Virus record (IMG/VR): IMGVR_UViG_3300032268_000832
Span: 186,001 to 250,000 of that record
DNA: 64,000 nt
Strand: one strand, 5' to 3'
Source: a virus
The notes under the pieces were generated by a model that saw only the letters and a list, made by a program, of their open reading frames with translations, was not told where the DNA came from and did not search any database. Position 1 is the first letter of the stretch. Every line of letters starts with the position of its first letter. Of the stretch, positions 5,658 through 58,565 are shown piece after piece. Both the position numbers and the translations under genes were made by a program.

Positions 5658-6689
5658 ATGAGCAAAAAAGATTATTATGAAGTTTTAGGTCTTAATAAGG
5701 CTGCTACTGCTGAAGAAATCAAAAAAACCTATAGAAAATTAGCAAAAGAACACCATCCAGATAAGGGCGGTGATGAAACACTATTTAAAGAAATTTCAGA
5801 AGCTTATGAAGTTTTATCTGATAAAGATAAAAAAGCCAAATACGATAGATTTGGTCATTCTCATGATAATATAGGTGGGTATGATGATATGCAAAATGGT
5901 TTCCATGATATGTTCAGTCAATTTTTTAGACAAAAACAAGCTAGAGAACGCGTTGGTGAAAATATGACCTTAACTGTAAAATTAACACTAGAAGAAATTT
6001 TTACAGGTGTTAAAAAGAAATATAACTACAATAGAAATGTTTCTTGTACTGACTGTTCTGGACATGGTGGTTCTGAACCACAAGAATGTTCTACATGTAA
6101 TGGAAGTGGTCAGATTAGACAAGTCACTAGAACACCTTTTGGTTTTATGGAAAACATAAATGATTGTCATGTTTGTAGTGGTACTGGAACAACTTTTAAA
6201 AACGAATGTAAAACTTGTAGTGGTAGTGGTTTAGTAAAAAAACAAGAACTAGTTGAAGTAGACATACCAACTGGAATCCAAGATGGTATGGCATTTGTTA
6301 TGGGTGGTAAAGGCCATGGTGTTAAAAGCGGAAGAGAAGGTGATTTAATTATACGAATATCCGAATTACCACACGAAAAATTCACTAGAGTTGGTTCGGA
6401 ACTAAAATTAAAACTTAAATTAGAATACCATCAGTTGGTATTGGGTGATAAAGTTGAAATAAACACCATAGAAGGTGGTAAAATTAGAATACCAATATCA
6501 GAATACAGTCAAATTGGGCAAAACCTTAAAATACCGTTTAAAGGTCTCAGAGAGCTAAATACAGACAAACGTGGTGATTTAATTGTTACTTTGGATGTGA
6601 ATATACCAAAAACTCTAGATGATAGCTTAAAAGCTATTATAATCGATTTAAAAGAAGAGTACGAAAAAAAACAAACGGAAAGTTTGTAA
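5658..6689 (+). CDS. dnaJ: DnaJ-type co-chaperone
   Basis: 343 residues, slightly shorter than the usual ~375. J domain at residues 1-68 with the HPD motif (EHHPDKGG) that activates DnaK; the Gly/Phe linker is short. Four CxxCxGxG zinc repeats (CTDCSGHG, CSTCNGSG, CHVCSGTG, CKTCSGSG) at about 135-200, then the C-terminal client-binding domains. Expected to work with the host DnaK in folding or assembly, as no DnaK is visible here. Confidence 0.95.
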   Translation: MSKKDYYEVLGLNKAATAEEIKKTYRKLAKEHHPDKGGDETLFKEISEAYEVLSDKDKKAKYDRFGHSHDNIGGYDDMQNGFHDMFSQFFRQKQARERVGENMTLTVKLTLEEIFTGVKKKYNYNRNVSCTDCSGHGGSEPQECSTCNGSGQIRQVTRTPFGFMENINDCHVCSGTGTTFKNECKTCSGSGLVKKQELVEVDIPTGIQDGMAFVMGGKGHGVKSGREGDLIIRISELPHEKFTRVGSELKLKLKLEYHQLVLGDKVEINTIEGGKIRIPISEYSQIGQNLKIPFKGLRELNTDKRGDLIVTLDVNIPKTLDDSLKAIIIDLKEEYEKKQTESL

Positions 6690-6706
6690 ATTAGAATATT
6701 AATTAG

Positions 6707-6714
6707 TATTTTTG
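6707..6714 (+). promoter_or_regulatory. Host-type -7 element TATTTTTG
   Basis: TAGTATTTTTG, with a TTG about 23 bases upstream, before the gene at 6751. Confidence 0.5.
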
Positions 6715-6750
6715 TAAAACAATAACATTATATAAAATTTTTTAAAAACA

Positions 6751-7176
6751 ATGGCTAGATACGAAGAACCATTTGAAGACACAACAGACTTGTATACTAA
6801 ACACATAGAAAGAGCAGGTCTATCTAATTTCATTAACATTACTGTGTTAACTAACAATAAAGCTAAAGACGTTTACAAGGTAAACAAAGCTAACGAATTG
6901 TTAAAATACAGAACTGGTGATGATATCATCATCGTTATCAACGAAAACGTCTTAGATAAACTTGATGACGCTGATAAAGAAATGGTGATTGAAGAATCTA
7001 TTTCTTCAATCCACTATAACACTGAAAAAGACAGAATTGAGATTTCTAAACCAGACGTTGTTACGTTTAGTGGTATTTTATCTAAACACGGTTTCGATAA
7101 ATGGAATCGAGTTAGAGAAACTATAAGTTTGTTATTCGAATCAGAAAAACAAACAGAGGCAGAAAACGCTGAGTAA
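6751..7176 (+). CDS. Conserved hypothetical phage protein, 141 aa
   Basis: 141 residues, acidic. Contains YRTGDDIIIVINENVLDKLD and IEESISSIHYN, which look like a compact conserved domain, but I cannot name it. The stop overlaps the start of the next gene (TAATG), so the pair is probably translationally coupled and co-transcribed with clpP. Confidence 0.65.
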   Translation: MARYEEPFEDTTDLYTKHIERAGLSNFINITVLTNNKAKDVYKVNKANELLKYRTGDDIIIVINENVLDKLDDADKEMVIEESISSIHYNTEKDRIEISKPDVVTFSGILSKHGFDKWNRVRETISLLFESEKQTEAENAE

Positions 7177-7472
7177 TGTTCAAAGAACAGATTGCTGAAA
7201 TAAACCCAGAAGCGTTATTAGTTGATGGGTTTGACGAAGCTATTATAGGCATGGCCGAGAGAATAAATCTCGGCCCTGTTGTTGCCTATGACGTAGAAAA
7301 AATAATCGAAATACTTGCTAAAGACATGGAAGTTGATATTGACGACATTACGGATGGTCAATCAATTGAAGAAGTTCAAATTAGTATGGCTTACGAATAT
7401 TTTTATTTTAATATCCAAGGAGCTTGGATGGGTGACTACACACCAATTTTTATTAGTAAACTACAAAATTAA
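7176..7472 (+). CDS. Hypothetical acidic protein, 98 aa
   Basis: 98 residues, starts MFKEQIAEINPEALLVDG. No family recognised. Sits 5 bases before clpP in the same operon. Confidence 0.6.
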   Translation: MFKEQIAEINPEALLVDGFDEAIIGMAERINLGPVVAYDVEKIIEILAKDMEVDIDDITDGQSIEEVQISMAYEYFYFNIQGAWMGDYTPIFISKLQN

Positions 7473-7477
7473 ATAAA

Positions 7478-8173
7478 ATGAATTACGCACAAGAATTTAA
7501 AGATTACGCTATCAAACACATGGGTATTAGCTCATGTCAATTTCAAGCATGGGAAGATGTTCAAACTAGAATATATGGTCCATCAGCTTCACTAACACCT
7601 TACATCTTAGAAGAAAGAGAATTGCGTGTTACACAAATGGATATTTTTTCCAGACTTATGATGGATAGAATCATTTGGTTAGCTGGACCTGTTAACGATA
7701 GAATGAGTACTGTTGTTCAAGCACAGTTAATGTTCTTAGACAATTTAGAAGTTAAGGATGTTACGTTACATGTTGATACACCAGGTGGGTCAGTAAAATC
7801 AGGTCTTTCAATCGTTGATGTAATGAACTATGTTTCATCTGATATCATTACAGTAAACACTGGTATGGCTGCAAGTATGGGTAGTATCTTATTAGGTGCT
7901 GGTACCAAAGGTAAACGCTTCACATTACCAAATAGTAGAGTAATGTTACACCAAGTATCAACAGGTGCCCAAGGTAACATTCAAGATATCAGACGTTCAA
8001 TCGCTGAGGGTGAAAAATATAACACAACATTATTTAACATGCTTGGAGAATTTACTGACAAAACACCAGAACAAGTTCTTAAAGATGCTGAAAGAGATTT
8101 TTGGATGAATGGTGAAGAAGCGTTGGCTTATGGTATTGTTGATGGTGTTATAACAAACAAAAAGAAAAAATAA
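7478..8173 (+). CDS. clpP: ClpP-like serine protease
   Basis: 231 residues, usual ClpP length. The Ser/His/Asp triad is in place: Ser in GMAASMGS, His in RVMLHQ, Asp in ERDFWM, and TPGGSV supplies the oxyanion region. ClpP forms a barrel that degrades proteins fed by Clp ATPases. No Clp ATPase is visible, so it may dock on host ClpX. It lies directly upstream of the tmRNA gene, whose tag marks proteins for such proteases. Phage ClpP can also act as a prohead protease, so that role is an alternative. Confidence 0.93.
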   Translation: MNYAQEFKDYAIKHMGISSCQFQAWEDVQTRIYGPSASLTPYILEERELRVTQMDIFSRLMMDRIIWLAGPVNDRMSTVVQAQLMFLDNLEVKDVTLHVDTPGGSVKSGLSIVDVMNYVSSDIITVNTGMAASMGSILLGAGTKGKRFTLPNSRVMLHQVSTGAQGNIQDIRRSIAEGEKYNTTLFNMLGEFTDKTPEQVLKDAERDFWMNGEEALAYGIVDGVITNKKKK

Positions 8174-8185
8174 TTATAAATAAAC

Positions 8186-8216
8186 TTGCATTTTATAAAA
8201 AATGTTAGTATATTTG
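8186..8216 (+). promoter_or_regulatory. Host-type promoter for the tmRNA
   Basis: TTGCA (8186) and TATATTTG (8209-8216) lie about 75 bases before the tmRNA 5' end. Confidence 0.65.
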
Positions 8217-8230
8217 TAAAAAGATTTAGG

Positions 8231-8262
8231 ATATGCGGGTTTTTTAATGTGTGCCCGCATAT
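8231..8262 (+). other. Hairpin in the tmRNA 5' leader
   Basis: ATATGCGGG pairs perfectly with CCCGCATAT across a 14-base loop that begins with a T run. It lies between the promoter and the mature tmRNA end and may be a processing or transcription-control element. Confidence 0.5.
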
Positions 8263-8291
8263 TTATAAATCACAAGTTCTTAGAAAAATAT

Positions 8292-8642
8292 GGGGTTGGT
8301 TGGTTTTGATTGGGTATAGTCGTAAACTGTAAGCATGTAGTGCTAGATTGGAAGCACTTTAATCTGTCTATTAAACATTGAATTGACAACGATTTTATCG
8401 TATCTGAAAATTTCCTTGATGAAGCTGTAATGGTTTCTAACGGAGAGTTAGCAGTAGCTTAAAACTGCAAATAGTGGTAATCCACTTGATAGTGATAATT
8501 CACTAAATAATGGTACACCATTCATCTTTATTATTGGATGCCATCGATAATATATTCTGGCGCTAGAAGAAAAATTGTAGCTAAACATGTAGAAAACATT
8601 TGAAGAATACTCAAGACGCGGGTTCGATTCCCGTCAGCTCCT
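8292..8642 (+). ncRNA. ssrA: Transfer-messenger RNA
   Basis: About 350 nt. The 5' end GGGGTTGGTTGGTTTTGATT and the 3' end with GACGCGGGTTCGATTCCCGT and CAGCTCC give the tRNA-like acceptor (7 pairs, G3-U70 kept for alanine charging) and T arm. An internal frame closes with GELAVA and TAA at 8460-8462 and is open back to an in-frame TGA just before 8382, so the tag is at most 26 residues. The base after the acceptor is T rather than the usual A, and CCA is not encoded. tmRNA rescues stalled ribosomes and tags the product for proteolysis; clpP lies just upstream. Confidence 0.9.
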
Positions 8643-8734
8643 CGAGTACTTTTTTGGGTGTATTAGGTTAATTCTTATTATACTCAACTCTTTAAAAAGA
8701 TTCAGTTAATTTTACCGAAAACATACTGAAATAA

Positions 8735-8775
8735 AAACCCCTAGTAAATTGTCGCTTACTAGGGGTTTAACTTTT
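8735..8775. terminator. Terminator with 10-bp stem
   Basis: AAACCCCTAGTAA pairs with TTACTAGGGGTTT. It has T runs on both strands and could serve the tmRNA and the minus-strand mini-gene. Confidence 0.85.
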
Positions 8776-8787
8776 TAATGCAATACC

Positions 8788-8829
8788 TTATTTTTTAGGT
8801 GGTTTGCATCCACATCCTTTGTTTTTCAT
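8788..8829 (-). CDS. Possible 13-residue Cys-rich peptide
   Basis: Minus-strand ATG to TAA frame encoding MKNKGCGCKPPKK. It has its own ATATTTATA element upstream (8863-8871, minus) and a strong terminator after it, so it looks like a complete transcription unit. Function unknown; it could instead be a small RNA. Confidence 0.4.
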   Translation of the reverse strand: MKNKGCGCKPPKK

Positions 8830-8862
8830 AGTACTAATTATTTAATGAAGTGTTATAACAAT

Positions 8863-8871
8863 TATAAATAT
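8863..8871 (-). promoter_or_regulatory. ATATTTATA element
   Basis: Second-class promoter element read on the minus strand, 34 bases before the ATG of the 13-residue peptide. Confidence 0.4.
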
Positions 8872-8890
8872 CTTATAAAAAATATTAATT

Positions 8891-9115
8891 ATGTTTTTCG
8901 ATAAAAAATATACTGTCACATTCCTAAATAGTAAATGGGAAATTGTAAAATCTAATGTCAAATTAATCTCAATTCCACAAAGAAACGAATATATTTACAT
9001 TAATAATAAATATTACGATGTTATCAACGTGATTCATTCGATTGATAAAACACATAAAATACATATTGTTATAGAAGAAACTGAGGAAAAATATGATTTA
9101 AATAAAAAAAAATAA
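8891..9115 (+). CDS. Hypothetical protein, 74 aa
   Basis: 74 residues, beta-rich pattern, starts MFFDKKYTVTFLNSKW. No family recognised. Confidence 0.6.
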   Translation: MFFDKKYTVTFLNSKWEIVKSNVKLISIPQRNEYIYINNKYYDVINVIHSIDKTHKIHIVIEETEEKYDLNKKK

Positions 9116-9133
9116 AAAAAGTTGTAAAAAAAC

Positions 9134-9164
9134 TTGACATGAGTCGAAACTTTTAGTATCTTTG
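9134..9164 (+). promoter_or_regulatory. Strong host-type promoter of tRNA array 0
   Basis: TTGACA (9134) and TATCTTTG (9157-9164), very similar to the promoters of the three leader-peptide modules. Confidence 0.75.
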
Positions 9165-9175
9165 CATATATTTAT

Positions 9176-9586
9176 TACAATACGTTCTTAAACAACATAT
9201 CTAAAAAGATGATTTCTGCAAACAGATATCTACAACTATGAGAAGGAGTAACTAGTCTCCATCGGACATTACTGACAACATTGAAATACCATGAGTCGCT
9301 ATTGTCACACGAAAGTGAAAAAAACTGGGAGTGTTGTGAGGACACTTTAAATCTACTACCGTGAGCACGTTAGTCACGTAAAACAAAGCGAACTATCATC
9401 TTGAGATAACTTATATGGTTAAAGAATCTTTTCAGCAAACTAAAACTCTATTTTTAATTTGATAAAAAACACAGAAAAAAAGAGATTCTGACCAAAAGTG
9501 GTAGAAGTTAAGTCTTTATCTGAAAGATTGCCTTAAAAAGCATTTTCTAGGATAGCTGGTTCATAGCCAGCCTACCGCACTAACAT
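9176..9586 (+). other. Long noncoding leader before the initiator tRNA
   Basis: About 400 bases with no convincing gene. It holds a mini-frame ATG-AGA-AGG-AGT-AAC-TAG at 9238 resembling the ATG-AGA starts of the other array leaders but ending at once in TAG, a TTCAGCAA element (9423-9489), and a 7-base loop hairpin GCTGG-TTCATAG-CCAGC near 9559 that looks like an isolated Met anticodon arm. No terminator with a T run was seen. Role unknown. Confidence 0.5.
9423..9489 (+). repeat. TTCAGCAA stem element, copy A
   Basis: AGAATCT then TTTCAGCAAACTAAAAC, an AT-rich interior, an A run, then AGATTCT completing a 7-bp stem. One of four such elements, all inside tRNA arrays. Confidence 0.55.
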
Positions 9587-9659
9587 TGCGGGGTAGAGCA
9601 GTAGGTAGCTCGCAAGGCTCATAACCTTGAGGTCGTCCGTTCGAGTCGGGCCCCCGCTA
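9587..9659 (+). tRNA. Initiator tRNA-fMet (CAT)
   Basis: Full cloverleaf: acceptor TGCGGGG/CCCCGCT, D arm GAGC/GCTC, anticodon arm CAAGG-CTCATAA-CCTTG, T arm GTCCG/CGGGC, A73. Positions 1 and 72 are a T-T mismatch, the initiator hallmark, and the body resembles bacterial fMet tRNA. CCA not encoded. Confidence 0.88.
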
Positions 9660-9693
9660 CTGGAGACTTTTTTGTACTTTTCAGTTTTCTGAG

Positions 9694-9702
9694 ATATTTA
9701 TT
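9694..9702 (+). promoter_or_regulatory. ATATTTATT element
   Basis: Second-class element 15 bases before the GIY-YIG gene. Confidence 0.4.
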
Positions 9703-9717
9703 ATTAAAGAAATTGAA

Positions 9718-10377
9718 ATGGCAAGAAAAGAAAAAAACATACACTACATTTATAAAACAACGTGTAATATAACAGGACGATGGTACATCGGAATGCATAG
9801 CACGTATAACTTAGAAGATGGTTATATAGGTAGTGGTAAAACATTAAGACGTTCTATTAGAAAATACGGTAAAGAAAATCACACAAAAGAGATTCTAGAA
9901 TTTTTAGAAAATAGAGAAGAATTAGCTAAAAGAGAAAAAGAAATTGTTAATAAAGAATTAATTTCAGATTCCAAATGTATGAATTTGGCTCTTGGTGGTG
10001 AAGGTGGTGGTTTTATCAATGAAGAACATATGTTTAAATGTGTTAAAGCTGGTAGAAAAAAAACTGACGAAGTTTTAAAAGAAAAGTTCGGTGGTGATGA
10101 AAACTGGTTAAGTAGATTCAATTCTCATGTTAATAAAATAGCTTGGGAAAATGAAGAATACAGACAGAATAAATTAAAAAATCTAGATTGGACTGGTAAA
10201 AATCATGCTGAAGAATCTAAACGTTTAATCTCTGAAAAAAGAAAAGGTACTGGTATTGGTGAAACAAATAGTCAATACGGTACGTGTTGGATAACCAGAG
10301 ACGGTGCTAACAAAAAGATAAAAAAAGAAAACCTTGAAACTTATCTGAACGAAGGTTGGGTTAAGGGTAGAAAATAA
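9718..10377 (+). CDS. GIY-YIG homing endonuclease (Seg-like)
   Basis: 219 residues. The GIY-YIG nuclease domain covers residues ~8-95: YIYKTTCNITGRWYIGMHST, GYIGSG, then a conserved LGGEGGG. The rest is a basic DNA-binding region. Free-standing enzymes of this type (T4 Seg family) cut related genomes and copy themselves in. It lies between two initiator-type tRNA genes, so a tRNA array was probably its landing site. Confidence 0.85.
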   Translation: MARKEKNIHYIYKTTCNITGRWYIGMHSTYNLEDGYIGSGKTLRRSIRKYGKENHTKEILEFLENREELAKREKEIVNKELISDSKCMNLALGGEGGGFINEEHMFKCVKAGRKKTDEVLKEKFGGDENWLSRFNSHVNKIAWENEEYRQNKLKNLDWTGKNHAEESKRLISEKRKGTGIGETNSQYGTCWITRDGANKKIKKENLETYLNEGWVKGRK

Positions 10378-10384
10378 AATACAT

Positions 10385-10471
10385 CGCGGAATGGTGGAAA
10401 TGGTAACATGCTAGGCTCATAACCTAGAGGAGCAGTAACACTGTGTTGTAGGTTCGAATCCTACTTCCGCA
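10385..10471 (+). tRNA. Initiator-like tRNA (CAT) with long variable arm
   Basis: Acceptor CGCGGAA/TTCCGCA with a C1-A72 mismatch and A73 as in bacterial initiators; anticodon arm CTAGG-CTCATAA-CCTAG; T arm GTAGG/CCTAC. Between them is a ~20-base variable arm (AGCAGT-AAC-ACTGT hairpin), which CAT tRNAs normally lack. Could be a remodelled Leu-type tRNA. Confidence 0.75.
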
Positions 10472-10477
10472 ACTAGA

Positions 10478-10525
10478 AGAATAGATTCAGCAATTTAATG
10501 TTTAGGATACAAAAAAGACTATTCT
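10478..10525 (+). repeat. TTCAGCAA stem element, copy B
   Basis: AGAATAG-ATTCAGCAATTTAA, a short interior, CAAAAAAGA, then CTATTCT pairing with the first seven bases. Directly follows the long-arm initiator tRNA. Confidence 0.55.
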
Positions 10526-10536
10526 GTAAAAATTAA

Positions 10537-10559
10537 AACCCATAGCAATATGGGTTTTT
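10537..10559 (+). terminator. Terminator ending tRNA array 0
   Basis: AACCCATAGCAATATGGGTTTTT: CCCATA/TATGGG stem followed by T run. Confidence 0.75.
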
Positions 10560-10597
10560 CTATTTAAACTAATAATTAATTTAAAACACAAAAACCA

Positions 10598-11275
10598 ATG
10601 GAAAAGATTAAACTTGAAATTCGTGGTGCAGAGGGCGGGACCGATGCAAAGCTATTGGTGTGTGAAATGAAAGACATTTACACCAAAGCAGCAAACATTA
10701 ATAACATCGGATGAATAACCGATGAAGAAAGAGATGGCTATGTTAGCATATGACTAACTGGTAAAAATGTCAAAAAAATCTTCGAAAACGAAATTGGTAA
10801 CCACAGGTGGCAAAGAGTCCCACCAACCGAACGTAAGGGAAGAGTCCACACTAGTTCAATAACAGTAGCACTTATGCAAGAAAACGATTACAAAGAAGTA
10901 GAGATACATCCAAGTGAATATCGTTTAGAAACAACTAGAGGGACTGGTCCAGGTGGGCAGCACCGCAACACTACTGACTCTACAGTAATTGTAACTCATG
11001 AAGCAACAGGTATTAAAGTTGTAAGAAACGGAAGATGCCAACATAAAAATAAAGAAGAAGCTCTTGTCGAATTAAAAAAACGAGTAAACGATTTTTATAG
11101 AAGCGGTCATGATAATGAAGCTAGTGAACAAAGAAAAGACCAAATCGGGAAGGGTGATAGAGGTGATAAACGAAGAACCTACAGAGTTAAAGATGGTGTT
11201 GTAATCGACCATATCACAGAAAAGACTGCAAATATAAAAGACATATACAGAGGTAAAATACAATTACTATCGTAA
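10598..11275 (+). CDS. RF1-like release factor with two in-frame UGA codons
   Basis: From ATG 10598 to TAA 11275 the frame encodes 225 residues if TGA at 10712 (codon 39) and 10751 (codon 52) are read. The product matches domains 2-4 of class I release factors: [43 protein letters not shown] with the catalytic GGQ, and QHKNKEEAL. The PPT tripeptide matches the RF1 type, which reads UAA and UAG, not UGA. Codon 39 aligns with a Trp conserved in RF1 (RRW), so UGA-to-Trp is the likely reading. The domain 1 part of RF1 is missing. Either expression depends on UGA readthrough or the gene is decaying. Confidence 0.75.
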
Positions 11276-11286
11276 TAAAAAAAAAA

Positions 11287-11310
11287 GGGTGAAATTTTCA
11301 CCCTTTTTTA
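11287..11310 (+). terminator. Terminator after the release factor gene
   Basis: GGGTGAAATTTTCACCC hairpin with an A run before and seven T after. Confidence 0.9.
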
Positions 11311-11334
11311 TTTGTACATAAGTAAAAAAATCGG

Positions 11335-11342
11335 TATCTTTG
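11335..11342 (+). promoter_or_regulatory. Host-type -7 element TATCTTTG
   Basis: CGGTATCTTTG, 17 bases before the ATG at 11360. Confidence 0.6.
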
Positions 11343-11359
11343 TAAAAAAATCTTTAAAT

Positions 11360-11554
11360 ATGAAAAACAATCCTTTAATTATTGTTATTTTTTGGATATT
11401 ATGGGTGGTTGGGTTAGATTACATTTCCGAGTATGTGATTAGCAGACCAACAGACGGTTCTGTTCAATTCTTATCCTTAATCTTTGTATTAGCAATGACT
11501 GTATTGTTAGTTAAAAAGACTTATTTGTATATTATTAACAATTTAAATAAATAA
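11360..11554 (+). CDS. Small membrane protein, 64 aa
   Basis: 64 residues from ATG 11360 (MKNNPLIIVIFWILW); an upstream TTG start would overlap the promoter. Two hydrophobic segments, about residues 4-22 and 36-52. No family recognised. Five bases before the SPFH gene, so it may be its partner. Confidence 0.6.
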   Translation: MKNNPLIIVIFWILWVVGLDYISEYVISRPTDGSVQFLSLIFVLAMTVLLVKKTYLYIINNLNK

Positions 11555-11559
11555 AAACC

Positions 11560-12498
11560 ATGATTTCAACAATTATTATTGTTTTATCGCTAATAATGGC
11601 GATAGTAATCGCTCTTTCCACAAGGGAATCGAGCACAAAACAAACCAACTGGGGAACAGAATTTAATAGTGTTTGGTTAATTAAACCAATACTAATATTA
11701 GTTTTGGGCCTTACGTTAGGTTTTACTCAACCTTACAAATTAGATAGGGTCGATGCTGGTAACGTAGGTATCAAAGTCAACTTATCTGGTGATGCACGCG
11801 GTGTATCAAAGTATGAATACAAAACTGGTTGGGTAGTATTCAATACATGGACTGAACAACTTTATCAGTTTCCAGTTTTCCAACAAACTATTGGATATGA
11901 AAAACAACAAGTTATAACCAAAGGTGGTTTCCCAGCGACAATTCACCCAAGTTTTAACTATTCATTAAAAGCTGGTGCTGTTGGTGATATGTTCCAGAAT
12001 TTACGTTTGGATATTAAATCAGTAGAACAAGGTTGGTTACAAACAGCCATAGTTGGTGCTATTAATGACGTTGCTAATAAATGGGAGGTTGATAAAATCT
12101 TTAACGAGCGTGAACAATTTGAAGCTGCGATTAAAACTGAATGTAACAAGCGTTTATCTAAATGGTTTACCGTGTCACAATTAAGAACAAACATTGTTCC
12201 ACCACAATCCTTACAAGAAACAATTATAGCTAAAACTAGAGCGATTCAACAAGCACAAGCTGAGGACCAAAAAGCTCTTACAGCTGAAGCTGAAGCTAGA
12301 AAGAAAGTGGCTATTGCTAATGGTGATGCACAACAAACAATTATCGCGGCTAAAGCACAAGCAGAAGCTATGAGAATTAGAAAACAAGAAATCACTCCGT
12401 TGTATGTTGAATACTTAAAATGGATTGACATCAACCCTAACACACCAAGGGTACCACAAGTTGTGGGTAGCACAGCAGTGTTAAACCAACTTAAATAA
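11560..12498 (+). CDS. SPFH/Band 7 (prohibitin-like) membrane protein
   Basis: 312 residues. Two N-terminal hydrophobic segments (MISTIIIVLSLIMAIVIAL and PILILVLGLTLGF), then an SPFH domain from about residue 65 (VDAGNVGIKVNLSGDARGVSKYE), then a long Ala/Gln/Glu-rich helix around 215-285 typical of the family coiled coil. SPFH proteins form membrane rings and scaffold proteases. Membrane protection during infection is plausible. Confidence 0.85.
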   Translation: MISTIIIVLSLIMAIVIALSTRESSTKQTNWGTEFNSVWLIKPILILVLGLTLGFTQPYKLDRVDAGNVGIKVNLSGDARGVSKYEYKTGWVVFNTWTEQLYQFPVFQQTIGYEKQQVITKGGFPATIHPSFNYSLKAGAVGDMFQNLRLDIKSVEQGWLQTAIVGAINDVANKWEVDKIFNEREQFEAAIKTECNKRLSKWFTVSQLRTNIVPPQSLQETIIAKTRAIQQAQAEDQKALTAEAEARKKVAIANGDAQQTIIAAKAQAEAMRIRKQEITPLYVEYLKWIDINPNTPRVPQVVGSTAVLNQLK

Positions 12499-12551
12499 AC
12501 CAAGAACTCTACTGTGAAAGGTAGGGTTTCTTCTAATTTAAAAAAATAGAT

Positions 12552-13055
12552 ATGTTTAAAAAAATGCTTATTATAGGTCACGCTCGCCACGCGAAAGATA
12601 CGTTAGCTGAAATATGGCGAGATAATTATGGTCTTACGTTCAAATCATCATCACAAGCTGCTGCTGATATTTTCTTGTATGACACCTTAAAAGACAAGTA
12701 TGGTTATACAACACCAGAAGAATGTTTCGAGGATAGAGTAAACCACAGAGCTGAATGGAAACAATTGATTTGTGATTACAACAAAGACGACAGAGCTAGA
12801 TTAGCTAAGAGTATACTAGAACAATCAGATTGTTATGTAGGTATGCGTGATAGAGAAGAAATAAACGAGTGTATGCGCCAAGGGTTGTTTGATATAATCA
12901 TTTGGGTTGACGCATCAGAAAGATTACCGTTGGAAGACCCTTCATCATTTGATATTGACAAAACATGCGCTGATATCATCATTGAAAACAATGGAACTTT
13001 CGAAGAATTCAAAGAGAAAGTTTTAAGACTTGGAAAATTTTTGAAAAAAAATTAG
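12552..13055 (+). CDS. Deoxynucleotide monophosphate kinase-like protein
   Basis: 167 residues. The N-terminal IIGHARHAKDTLAEIW resembles the variant P-loop GHARHGKDT seen in phage dNMP kinases. A DCYVGMRDREE segment and IIIWVDAS fit a nucleotide-kinase fold. Likely supplies dNTP precursors. Ends in TAG. Confidence 0.7.
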   Translation: MFKKMLIIGHARHAKDTLAEIWRDNYGLTFKSSSQAAADIFLYDTLKDKYGYTTPEECFEDRVNHRAEWKQLICDYNKDDRARLAKSILEQSDCYVGMRDREEINECMRQGLFDIIIWVDASERLPLEDPSSFDIDKTCADIIIENNGTFEEFKEKVLRLGKFLKKN

Positions 13056-13063
13056 AAAAAAAG

Positions 13064-13094
13064 TTGCACAATTAAAAAAGTTGTGGTATCTTTG
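13064..13094 (+). promoter_or_regulatory. Host-type promoter for the CTA tRNA
   Basis: TTGCA (13064) and TATCTTTG (13087-13094), 12 bases before the tRNA 5' end. Confidence 0.75.
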
Positions 13095-13105
13095 TATCAC
13101 AATAA

Positions 13106-13178
13106 GGTTCTATAGTATTAACGTGAATACGCCCGCCTCTAAAACGGAGAAATATCGGTTCGAGTCCGATTAGAACTA
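13106..13178 (+). tRNA. Amber-suppressor-like tRNA (anticodon CTA)
   Basis: 73 nt: acceptor GGTTCTA/TAGAACT (G1-U72 wobble), D stem GTAT/ATAC, T arm ATCGG-TTCGAGT-CCGAT, A73. The anticodon loop CTCTAAA gives anticodon CTA, reading UAG. The anticodon stem has three central pairs with C-A mismatches at both ends; the D loop lacks the usual GG. Amino acid identity cannot be read from the sequence. The next gene has UAG at codon 3. Confidence 0.7.
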
Positions 13179-13238
13179 CAAACACTTTACATTTTTTAGA
13201 AAAATGATATATTTATAAACAAAAAACAAATAGAACAA

Positions 13239-13589
13239 ATGACTTAGATTAACAATCAAAAATTAAGAGTTGTCACAAGACGTGACTTACCAATTTCCAC
13301 ACAAGCGGTGCAATCGGCACACGCAGCCATTGATTTTCAACATGACCACCCAGAAGTGGCATCACAATGGCAAACAAAATCAAATTATTTAGCATTATTA
13401 ACTGTCGCTGATGAAGAAGAGTTAATCAAATTGATTACCAAAGCTATCTTTATTGGTATCAAACACACTATTTTCCGTGAACCAGATTTGGGTAACGTGA
13501 TTACAGCAGTAGCCTTTGAACCAACAGACGCGGCTAAAAAACTTACCAGTTCATGTCCGTTATTAGGAAAGGAGGTTCAATATGCTTAA
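13239..13589 (+). CDS. Peptidyl-tRNA hydrolase 2-like protein, UAG at codon 3
   Basis: From ATG 13239 the frame reads ATG-ACT-TAG-ATT and then codes without interruption. The family-conserved N-terminal strand KLRVVTRRDLPISTQAVQ lies entirely before the first downstream GTG (13308), so starting there would delete an essential part. About 115 residues; VQSAHAAIDF and FREPDLGNVITAVAF match PTH2/PTRHD1-type enzymes, which free tRNA from peptidyl-tRNA. Full length needs UAG readthrough (a CTA tRNA is 61 bases upstream) or initiation at the ATT after the UAG. Confidence 0.75.
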
Positions 13590-13845: not shown

Positions 13846-13915
13846 GGTTTGGTGACCGAGTGGTAGGTACAGTTCCGCAAGAACTGGCACGGTGGTTCGA
13901 ATCCACCCCAAACCT
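13846..13915 (+). tRNA. tRNA-Cys (GCA)
   Basis: Acceptor GGTTTGG/CCAAACC perfect; anticodon arm CAGTT-CCGCAAG-AACTG, anticodon GCA; T arm GGTGG/CCACC; discriminator T, specific to Cys tRNA. Position 33 is C rather than U. Confidence 0.85.
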
Positions 13916-14049
13916 CTAATAATAATTTAAAACATAGAAATCATGATGTAGATTGCAAGACCACCGAATTAAGTTTATTATAACTTGGACATTATCTTGG
14001 ACAACTTGTCCAACTACTAACAATTATAATAAATTTAAAAAGAAAACAA

Positions 14050-23946: not shown

Positions 23947-24018
23947 ACTTCGCTGGTGAAATGGCTATCATCTTGGTCTCCAAAACCAAGGTTTCAGGTT
24001 CGAGTCCTGAGCGTAGTG
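23947..24018 (+). tRNA. tRNA-Trp (CCA)
   Basis: Anticodon arm TTGGT-CTCCAAA-ACCAA, T arm TCAGG/CCTGA, acceptor ACTTCGC/GCGTAGT with one T-T mismatch, G73. The only Trp tRNA in the window; it would be the candidate reader if UGA is translated. Confidence 0.85.
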
Positions 24019-24027
24019 CTAAAACAT

Positions 24028-51912: not shown

Positions 51913-51943
51913 TTGACTTGTATTAAAACAGTTCGTATATTTG
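51913..51943 (+). promoter_or_regulatory. Promoter of tRNA array 2
   Basis: TTGAC (51913) and TATATTTG (51936-51943), within a ~40-base stretch almost identical to the array 3 promoter. Confidence 0.85.
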
Positions 51944-51982
51944 CATCGTATTAAATTTTAACGAAAAAAGAAACAAAACAAA

Positions 51983-52063
51983 ATGAGAAATACTTTTAAC
52001 ATATTAGTCCTTTTAAGCTTATGCTTGCTAGTGGTAAACACAGCAGGGCTTTGCGTATGTTAA
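51983..52063 (+). CDS. Leader peptide of tRNA array 2 (attenuator)
   Basis: 26 codons from ATG to TAA. Residues 8-18 are LVLLSLCLLVV and 23-26 are LCVC, so Leu, Val and Cys dominate, the amino acids of every tRNA that follows (Cys, Val, Leu, Leu, Val, Leu). The Leu codons used are TTA, TTG, CTT and CTA, covering the three Leu anticodons present (TAA, TAG, AAG). GGGCTTT at 52046-52052 is fully complementary to AAAGCCC at 52096-52102, which overlaps the terminator's 5' arm. It could also be mistaken for a membrane peptide. Confidence 0.8.
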   Translation: MRNTFNILVLLSLCLLVVNTAGLCVC

Positions 52064-52095
52064 ACTCATCTGAATAAGATAAGTATCTCTCACAA

Positions 52096-52125
52096 AAAGC
52101 CCATCCTAACCAGATGGGTTTTTTT
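52096..52125 (+). terminator. Attenuator terminator of tRNA array 2
   Basis: CCCATC pairs with GATGGG across CTAACCA, followed by seven T. Confidence 0.9.
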
Positions 52126-52138
52126 ATTGAATAATAAT

Positions 52139-52219
52139 GCCGTGGTTCCTGAGTGGTCAAAGGGGGCGGACTGCAAATCCGCTGCGAAAGCTTCGTGGGT
52201 TCGAATCCCTCTCACGGCT
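52139..52219 (+). tRNA. tRNA-Cys-type (GCA) with long variable arm
   Basis: Acceptor GCCGTGG/TCACGGC, anticodon arm GCGGA-CTGCAAA-TCCGC, variable arm CGAA-AGC-TTCG, T arm with one T-T mismatch, discriminator T as in Cys tRNA. The D arm (CCTGAGTGGTCAAAGGGG) and long arm strongly resemble tRNA-Tyr. A normal Cys tRNA lies at 13846. Confidence 0.8.
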
Positions 52220-53865: not shown

Positions 53866-53940
53866 GGCCCCGTCTTCTAAACGGAATAGGAAGCCACCCT
53901 TTCAAGGTGTGTAATGCGAGTTCGAGTCTCGTCAGGGCTA
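53866..53940 (+). tRNA. tRNA-Glu (TTC), copy 1
   Basis: Acceptor GGCCCCG/CAGGGCT with one C-A mismatch, loop CTTTCAA, T arm GCGAG/CTCGT, A73. Confidence 0.85.
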
Positions 53941-54340: not shown

Positions 54341-56683
54341 ATGAAATTATCACATATATTCAAGGATTTGTTAAATGAGGATTTTAAAACTCAAACACAG
54401 AAATTCATCTCTCAAGGTTATGAACCAGAAATTGTTAGGTCGTATATTGAAAAATTTAAATATATTAGAGATGGTAAGTATCGTGAGGCGCTTAACCCTG
54501 ACTTAAACATCAACGTTCCAGTTGAAAAACGATTTGATATTGATGCGTACCCAACGTTTAATTCTCTTGAAACCCTAGTTGATTATGTGTCAGGTCAAAG
54601 ACCAGTTAAAACCACTATGTCAAAACAAAATGATATTGAAGTTACTGGTGAAGCTGTTTATAACAAAGATGGTGTTGAAGTATTTTATGCTGACAATCCA
54701 AGAGCGTGTATTAAATATAAGGGTAGTATGCCATATAGTTGGTGTGTTGCTAGGTCAGATTCTTCAAACATGTTCTATACATACAGATTTAAACCATATG
54801 AACCAGCTTTTTATTTTGTTAAGGATGTAAAAGCTACTGAAAAAGAATTGGCAGATATTGCTAAAACTGGTACTGTTAGTGGTGGTTTTAAAAATAGATA
54901 TCATTTCTTTGTTATTCAAGTACCTAAAAACCTTAACCCTGAAGATGACAACACCCCACAATACATAGTTACTTCAGCTAACAATGACGGGGATAATCAA
55001 TTAAGTTGGAATCAAATTCTAGAAATAAACCCAAAATTAGCTGCTATAAAAAATGTATTGATTCCTAAACCTTTTACACCACAAGAAAGGGCGCAACATG
55101 AAAGGTTTAAAAAGGGTATAAATGATAATGAATTTAGGAAACTTAGTTACGAAGATAAGAAAGCTTATTTGGATATATACCCAACAATTGCTAAACCAAT
55201 TACAACTAATCAATTTTTGATATTACCAGACGATTTAAAGAATCTATATGTTTCATTTGGTATTGGATTAGACGATGAACAATTTGATAGTATTAAAAAC
55301 AACCCTAAATTACTTAAGCGTTATGTACAAATTAGTGATAGAAAGTTAGATGTTTATTTAAAAGCTGATAATTGGAATAGAACTAGTTATCGTATGATGT
55401 ATACTGAATTGATAGTACTTCCAGAGGAAAAAATATCAGAATACTTAAACACTTTAAATAAAAAAGAAATTGGTAGTTTTATTGCGAATAACGGTGTTGA
55501 TAAATTAGAAATGCTAGAGAAACTTGCTTCTGGTAAATTGGTTGGTAATTATTCTGATATTAAACCGATAATTGATGGTTTAAGAAAAAATAGTGGAATT
55601 AGATATAGAAGCAAATATAATGAAGAAACAGATGTAATAGAACTGTTAAACGAAATGCTTCCAGATAGTGTATCTGTTGAATATGGTGAATATTCAAATG
55701 AAATTATGTTTGAACTTTCTTCCGAAATAAAATTTGGTTATGATTTAGAAGGTGTTTTATCCAGCTTATCACAAGATAGTTGGGATTCATGGAATGATAG
55801 TTATTTTGATGGTTGGTCTGAAGGACTTAAAGAAGAATACGAAAACCAAATAGAATCAGTACTTAAAGACCAAAATTTAGTTAATGATTTAAGAAAAAAT
55901 GGTATAAACCCAACACCAAAAATAGTAGAAACGTTATTAGAAAAATTTAATGCGAGTGAAAAAATAAAAGAACACATTGATGAAGTTTATACTGAAGCTC
56001 AATCTGTTAGTGAAAATCGAATATTTAGAGAGTTACATAATAAATTTACAAAGATAATAACTTACGAGAATAGTAATAGCGGTGGTTATTATGGTTCTAG
56101 TAGAAGAAATTTTACTGAGGTTACTATAAATATATCTAATTTTATTGGTGCTTTAATTTCAGATTCTGACATATTAACAAAAGATAAAACACAATTTGAA
56201 AGCGCTTTTGAATCATTATTAGAAGACTTATTAGAACAAGCCGATTTACCTACAACTCAAGAAGAGATAGACGAAGAAGTTAGAAATGGTGGTGTAGATA
56301 TTGATAATGAAGCTATGAGTAACTACATAAAGGAAAAAATATATGAGATTATAGATGAAAAAATTTATAATAATGACGATGAATATAATGACGAAGAACG
56401 TGAAGAAATAAAAAAAACAAAATATGATATTCTTACAGCTTTTGAAAAAACACTTAAAGGGTTAGGTCAAGATGAAAATACTAATGAAATAGAAAATGAT
56501 TTAGTTCGTATTGTATTTGATAGAAGTAAAATTAAAACCAATGGGTCGATTTATACCTCTGTTATTCATAAGAAAGATAATAGTACTTTTAATGGTTATA
56601 TGTTTATTAATGACATCCCATCTTATTTTAAAAACTACAAATTATTTGAAGAAATAAAAAAAATGAAAAATTTAATCAATTAA
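54341..56683 (+). CDS. Large predicted packaged protein, 780 aa
   Basis: 780 residues. N-terminus MKLSHIFKDLLNED is a variant tag with an LNE site. Around residue 125 it has GSMPYSWCVARSDSSNMFYT and AFYFVKDV, a Trp-Cys domain shared with the 15709 protein. The rest is helical and acidic, with no catalytic motif I can identify. Confidence 0.68.
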   Translation: MKLSHIFKDLLNEDFKTQTQKFISQGYEPEIVRSYIEKFKYIRDGKYREALNPDLNINVPVEKRFDIDAYPTFNSLETLVDYVSGQRPVKTTMSKQNDIEVTGEAVYNKDGVEVFYADNPRACIKYKGSMPYSWCVARSDSSNMFYTYRFKPYEPAFYFVKDVKATEKELADIAKTGTVSGGFKNRYHFFVIQVPKNLNPEDDNTPQYIVTSANNDGDNQLSWNQILEINPKLAAIKNVLIPKPFTPQERAQHERFKKGINDNEFRKLSYEDKKAYLDIYPTIAKPITTNQFLILPDDLKNLYVSFGIGLDDEQFDSIKNNPKLLKRYVQISDRKLDVYLKADNWNRTSYRMMYTELIVLPEEKISEYLNTLNKKEIGSFIANNGVDKLEMLEKLASGKLVGNYSDIKPIIDGLRKNSGIRYRSKYNEETDVIELLNEMLPDSVSVEYGEYSNEIMFELSSEIKFGYDLEGVLSSLSQDSWDSWNDSYFDGWSEGLKEEYENQIESVLKDQNLVNDLRKNGINPTPKIVETLLEKFNASEKIKEHIDEVYTEAQSVSENRIFRELHNKFTKIITYENSNSGGYYGSSRRNFTEVTINISNFIGALISDSDILTKDKTQFESAFESLLEDLLEQADLPTTQEEIDEEVRNGGVDIDNEAMSNYIKEKIYEIIDEKIYNNDDEYNDEEREEIKKTKYDILTAFEKTLKGLGQDENTNEIENDLVRIVFDRSKIKTNGSIYTSVIHKKDNSTFNGYMFINDIPSYFKNYKLFEEIKKMKNLIN

Positions 56684-58431: not shown

Positions 58432-58507
58432 ATGAGGATAGCTCAGTTGGTAGAGCGCTCGGTGGTTCGCTGCCGAGAGGTTGCAGGTTCGAGTCCTGCT
58501 CCTTGTA
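58432..58507 (+). tRNA. tRNA with enlarged anticodon loop
   Basis: Acceptor ATGAGGA/TCCTTGT, perfect D arm GCTC/GAGC, T arm GCAGG/CCTGC, A73. The anticodon stem CTCGG/CCGAG closes a 10-base loop TGGTTCGCTG (8 if a T-G pair is added) instead of 7, so the anticodon cannot be assigned. Could be a frameshift-type or intron-containing tRNA, or degenerate. Confidence 0.6.
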
Positions 58508-58565
58508 CAAAAAAATTTTTAACTATTATTTAACAAAAAAATTTTGTAGTTACAAAAATACTTAG

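Follow-up and report, generated by a model that had tools for sequence, protein, structure and literature searches.

Conserved early stop codons in a shortened RF1-type release factor gene of a large phage and its relatives

The window analysed here, a stretch of 64,000 nucleotides, covers positions 186001–250000 of a 306,463-base IMG/VR phage record (IMGVR_UViG_3300032268_000832) and contains, on the plus strand at 10598–11275, an RF1-like release factor gene whose reading frame is interrupted by two in-frame UGA codons. The single frame runs from an ATG through 225 codons to a TAA at 11273–11275; for its domains 2–4 to be made in full, two UGAs must be decoded, one at codon 39 (10712–10714; context GGA TGA ATA) and one at codon 52 (10751–10753; context ATA TGA CTA), both on the plus strand, and apart from these two codons the gene shows no damage. 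An original prediction, made from the sequence without database searches, had described an RF1-like gene with two in-frame UGAs and a PPT motif, and this description was borne out: the PCRF (55.8 bits) and RF-1 (82.2 bits) domains span the read-through product, both above the Pfam cut-off, and the sequence has PPT (PxT), a Gln located three residues N-terminal to this motif, and GGQ. The read-through product matched RF1 among PDB sequences at about 1e-37, and the best PDB matches to its AlphaFold model (mean predicted local distance difference test score 89) were ribosome-bound RF1, at a template modelling (TM) score of about 0.85. Domain 1 is missing, the alignment to the NCBIfam prfA profile beginning at profile position 105, and the protein reaches neither the prfA equivalog cut-off (189.8 bits vs 400) nor that of release_prfH (73.5 vs 166.65 bits). 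In a search of the whole record the window copy, with its two internal TGAs, was the sole gene with an RF-1 domain; its predicted product is an additional class-I release factor, of RF1 type and shortened. UGA39 and UGA52 map to the two strands of one beta-hairpin in domain 2; since both precede the PPT and GGQ loops, termination at either would yield no working module.

Both TGAs are kept in independent assemblies at 99, 94, 91, 77, 76, 73, and 72% identity, as well as, at 42% identity, in LR756501, a huge phage of 735 kb; another huge phage, LR745206 (48% identity), has two TGAs too, the first at a shifted place. Among the relatives, TGA39 is conserved in L015–L020, L047–L049, L039, and L053 (codon 38 in L053), and the place of TGA52 is occupied by TAG in L058, L060, and L120 or, in L022–L026, by a codon for Cys with a CTT-TAG-C shift after it. 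Over codons 53–225, comparison of the window gene with that of L020 gave a nonsynonymous divergence (dN) of 0.19 and a synonymous divergence (dS) of 2.6, and this dN/dS of about 0.07 points to purifying selection on the gene beyond the stops. Decay or sequencing error is the usual meaning of in-frame stops, and the original prediction named relatives with TGG in a decaying gene, or a misread TGG, as what would undo it; instead, independent assemblies and a gene at 42% identity have the same TGAs, dN is far below dS after them, the interrupted gene lies on four complete Variovorax plasmids, and, of the 101 in-frame stops carried by the 82 in-frame genes, 100 fall at codons 33–52 and a single one outside, all of which makes decay or error extremely improbable. 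The same prediction had called the two positions Trp-like, which the relatives do not bear out: no Trp is listed for either place, column 39 having L, V, C, F, T, or A and column 52 having R, C, Q, L, or E, and W or F stands nearby only in cellular RF1. The first ~105 codons of the window gene (10598–10912) are identical in nucleotide sequence to L016 and L017, and the 6–9% residue differences from those two genes all fall afterwards, a pattern that suggests recombination inside the gene.

Three scans of viral contigs recovered 171 distinct related genes, about 162 of which are interrupted and need recoding, always within codons 33–54. In the first counts, the interruption was in frame as one TGA (61 genes), a double TGA (16), a TGA plus a TAG (2), or a TAG (3, one of which has an extra TAA at codon 182), or it required a +1 shift at TGA (50), TAG (25), or TAA (3), with one apparent +2 shift (L160, at the same site as in L033) and 10 genes seemingly intact. 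On re-reading, L063, L071, and L160 were reassigned to CTT-TAG shifts, which brought the shift genes to 48 with TGA, 28 with TAG, and 3 with TAA. Among the 10 genes scored as intact, L132 proved to be a missed TAG shift, while L041 belongs to bacterial prfA and L042 is of RF2 type and full length. CTT precedes the stop at all 79 shift sites, so that the arrangement of a prfB-type +1 shift (CTT, a stop, and the rest of the gene in the +1 frame) is found in 79 relatives, whereas the window gene stays in frame. An upstream stretch resembling a Shine-Dalgarno (SD) sequence accompanies 56 of the 67 early shift sites and none of the 12 late ones, which belong to the window's part of the tree. Two genes, L063 and L071, combine both devices, with TGA39 followed by a CTT-TAG-C shift. 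UGA is the commonest stop overall (48 shift and 77 in-frame genes), and the PxT motif and the Gln are nearly invariant whichever of UGA, UAG, or UAA interrupts the gene, although some phages vary near the recognition loop (Q72 to I, N, or H). The 362-kb phage L052 (record G002) additionally carries a second RF1-like copy, in apparently separated pieces (51923–52204 and 55271–55588) with a TAA inside.

The gene also occurs in bacterial genomes, one scan of which gave 37 loci, 34 of them interrupted. Carriers include Nannocystis, Minicystis rosea, Pyxidicoccus fallax, Achromobacter anxifer, and Variovorax sp. WDL1, with cultured representatives in Nannocystis exedens DSM 71, A. anxifer LMG 26857, and the WDL1 strain. 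Part of the 37 loci may derive from phages, and in the five genomes checked the gene is additional to full-length release factors. On the four complete Variovorax plasmids the interrupted form is annotated as two pieces, and since annotation can split such genes in this way the family is hard to see.

A tree of 136 representatives, built quickly from the columns after codon 55 only and with weak deep support, implies at least 11 changes between shift and in-frame forms and at least 27 changes of stop identity, while the interruption itself persists. The 11-row clade that holds the window gene mixes the double TGA, the CTT-TAG shift, and the combined form; in the shift sisters, the codon corresponding to TGA52 is TGT or TGC and stands immediately 5′ of CTT-TAG. 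The alignments thus show a conserved interruption ahead of all functional modules, one apparently realised by interchangeable recoding signals. Promoters in the window phage are of the Bacteroidota type, and hosts of that type make little use of SD pairing, which may be the reason both for the absent stimulator and for the move to in-frame UGA.

The surroundings of the in-frame stops appear leaky. T follows none of 79 in-frame UGAs, compared with 51 of the 139 UGAs that end reading frames in the ordinary way in these loci (p 2e-12). In the clade interrupted at codons 33–37, a covarying 18-bp hairpin begins 8 nt after the UGA (base 11 of the alignment), with 26 paired-change cells where 8.7 were expected (matched by 0 of 500 shuffles) and a mean folding z-score of -2.8 against -0.4 in control stretches; in the window's clade, folding is mildly stronger than in shuffled sequence (z -1.85). 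A candidate reader is encoded in the window itself, namely a tRNA-Trp (CCA) on the plus strand at 23947–24019 with a U11-A24 pair. Hirsh-like A24 was found in the tRNA-Trp of nine of 11 in-frame-UGA phages and one of six others (p 0.03), rows that are related to one another; A24 is also natural in bacteria, and this tRNA as a UGA reader is only a lead. Of the features by which programmed readthrough is recognised, the comparative ones (a conserved in-frame stop, purifying selection on both sides, and a weak context) are found at this gene.

All of the evidence for a gate is comparative, and on that evidence synthesis of this extra RF1-type class-I factor is probably gated by programmed recoding that senses termination. 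The parts of this model that we infer are readthrough itself, the residue inserted, what depletes RF2, and which codons the product recognises; it would work as follows. Normally, ribosomes would terminate at UGA39 by means of RF2 and leave a dead peptide of 38 residues without the codon-reading or GGQ modules. Were termination at UGA to become slow, for example through scarcity of RF2 in an infected cell, UGA39 followed by UGA52 would be decoded by a near-cognate aminoacyl-tRNA (Trp-tRNA CCA being the likeliest). The complete factor would release peptides at UAA and UAG, restoring release capacity that had been lost. A factor serving UAA would be useful because UAA ends most long open reading frames (ORFs) of the phage (255 of 298), and two stops in series would give a steep response. 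Relatives would operate the same gate as a +1 shift at CTT-UGA, CTT-UAG, or CTT-UAA or as one in-frame stop, and those with UAG or UAA would place an RF1-type factor under self-regulation. The window's UGA gates would sense RF2 instead, because the recognition loop is of the RF1 type in every class, unless the specificity of the factor is unusual. The proposal that synthesis of the protein depends on UGA readthrough therefore gains strong support from comparison, given relatives with a CTT-stop +1 shift and some with both devices. As for its being a mirror image of RF2 autoregulation, the likeness holds as a counterpart and fails as a strict mirror image, since a factor of the RF1 type is not expected to work at UGA.

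Several points weigh against this termination-sensing gate. A product with PxT and Gln should not act at UGA, so that the gene would sense RF2 and not itself, and the recognition loop shows no variation with stop type. Two serial UGAs of ordinary leakiness would yield very little protein, the trigger (loss of RF2 activity) is an assumption, and covariation gives no support to a hairpin around TGA39 in the window's clade. If the specificity of the product were altered or broadened such that it terminates at UGA, each gate would sense its own activity as in prfB; the predominance of UGA among the gates and the substitutions of Q72 would suit this, but the near-invariance of the RF1-type PxT and Gln across UGA, UAG, and UAA gates, and the very existence of UAG and UAA gates, make such strict autoregulation unlikely.

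A different meaning for UGA was also considered. The original prediction suggested that the gene might mark a late programme with UGA reassigned. In favour of such a late or alternative code, in which UGA would encode an amino acid and the RF1-like gene would belong to the programme, recoded huge phages are known, an RF1-type factor would fit, and none of the 31 window ORFs of at least 200 amino acids ends in TGA. Across the record, however, UGA ends 25 of the 298 long ORFs, one of 659 amino acids among them, mostly with another stop soon after, and in the loci of kin with a single in-frame UGA it ends 177 of 581. No tRNA with the anticodon UCA (TCA in the gene) was found in the record, nor a real one near any family member, and neither mark of a code 4 phage (UGA absent as terminator, UCA tRNA present) is seen here. 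A scan for coding potential and one for conserved stops, the latter noisy because of mirror frames and confined to aligned regions, gave no further convincing in-frame stop and no in-frame UGA comparable to these elsewhere, and in relatives UAG takes the place of UGA; a UGA code is accordingly most improbable. What looks like readthrough of a TAG at record position 94117 is explained most simply by two adjacent ORFs, the second starting MPNRKISQL. Selenocysteine would suit the Cys that L022, L024, and L026 have at the two UGA columns and the hairpin 8 nt past the UGA in one clade, but UAG stands in for UGA at the same column, many different residues occur there in other relatives, and no tRNA for selenocysteine was found, though the host could supply one; decoding of this kind is hardly credible. 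The tRNA of that type reported by ARAGORN at 53866, which is also the window's sole candidate for a UCA tRNA, has the loop CTTTCAA, hence the anticodon UUC, and is a misread tRNA-Glu.

The gene sits among others concerned with translation. On the plus strand, a tRNA-Met (CAT) lies directly upstream of it (10385–10473) and a phage transfer-messenger RNA (tmRNA) farther upstream (8292–8645; Rfam RF00023, 72.4 bits), the latter missed by ARAGORN, which does report tmRNAs in L020 and L022. Downstream, also on the plus strand, a tRNA with a CTA anticodon (13106–13179), a candidate amber suppressor, stands just upstream of a PTH2 peptidyl-tRNA hydrolase gene (13239–13589; Pfam 33 bits vs a cut-off of 23) that has an in-frame TAG of its own at codon 3 (13245–13247). 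This TAG is at codon 3 or 4 in all the PTH2 relatives found, down to 51% identity, and also in a 30% match, L151. In the double-UGA and CTT-TAG clades the CTA-anticodon tRNA keeps its place next to the release factor gene; among the portion of tRNA genes examined, no such tRNA was seen in the in-frame-TAG phages L172 and L059. The whole cluster (5658–13589), comprising DnaJ, a phage metallopeptidase, ClpP, the tmRNA, the RF1-like gene, an SPFH protein, the CTA tRNA, and PTH2, looks like a translation and protein quality-control island. It is possible, though we hold this tentatively, that the RF1-like and PTH2 genes, both of which would serve to free stuck peptides, form a termination-stress regulon, each gated by its own early stops and accompanied by the candidate amber-suppressor tRNA and the tmRNA, with the UGA gate read mainly by RF2 and the UAG gate by RF1. 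If so, the phage would gauge the release capacity of its host through its own mRNAs, in a switch-like manner owing to two stops in series. Several other tRNAs are unusual. Those with an 8-nt anticodon loop, which are candidate frameshifting tRNAs, occur in the window (58432–58508; ttcg), in L013 (17683–17759; gagg), and in L021 (6493–6569; ccta). The window tRNA-Cys (GCA; 13846–13916) has C33, and its counterparts in the CTT-TAG clade (L022, 5958–6027; L024, 12838–12907) have lost a base of the anticodon arm and are no longer read as Cys.

Among known systems, the closest bacterial parallel is prfB, which encodes RF2 and is likewise a class-I release factor gene interrupted early by a stop, passed there by a programmed +1 frameshift at CTT TGA C; relatives of the window gene have exactly this CTT-stop motif, preceded in most cases by an SD-like stretch. 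The family differs in its RF1-like product without domain 1, in the site of the interruption (codon 26 of domain 1 in prfB, codons 34–54 of domain 2 here), and in its common UAG gates, whereas TAG was found in the prfB motif in none of 8,164 genomes in a survey that also found no programmed frameshift in prfA (PMC12421855). The window member departs further still, with in-frame UGAs and no shift. It has in common with bacterial prfA the fold, the PCRF and RF-1 domains, PxT, and GGQ, yet lacks domain 1 and falls far under the equivalog cut-off; no control of bacterial prfA by recoding is known. PrfH also lacks domain 1 and resembles the window model in structure (9mor, TM 0.62), but the window protein scores well below its profile cut-off, and no recoding of PrfH is reported in the literature examined. 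The UAG- and UGA-recoded huge phages share the CTA-anticodon tRNA beside the gene; here, by contrast, the in-frame stops found are in two termination or rescue genes and not genome-wide.

A review of recoding knew of no RF2 with readthrough of an early in-frame UGA and no RF1 with a UAG counterpart, apart from a giant-virus factor (PMC5009743), and our literature search, whose coverage excluded most subscription papers and preprints, found no report of such gated release factor genes in phages. From the comparisons above, a large family in phages and bacteria is predicted to include both forms made by in-frame readthrough and RF1-type forms gated by UAG. With its natural switches, both of mechanism (readthrough or frameshift) and of stop codon (any of the three), this family allows what the gates sense to be asked, and it raises the question why phages carry a third release factor. 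In the eRF1 genes of Mimivirus (R726) and Megavirus (mg280), UGA readthrough is combined with a shift at CUU UAG C or CUU UAA C (PMC3521657), so that a viral release factor bears the same pairing of readthrough and shift as L063 and L071. Those factors are of the eukaryotic and archaeal type, belong to amoeba viruses, and are not homologous to bacterial RF1, and the window gene would need readthrough twice and a shift nowhere; how the control of bacterial RF2 and that of giant-virus eRF1 converged is a further question that this family opens.
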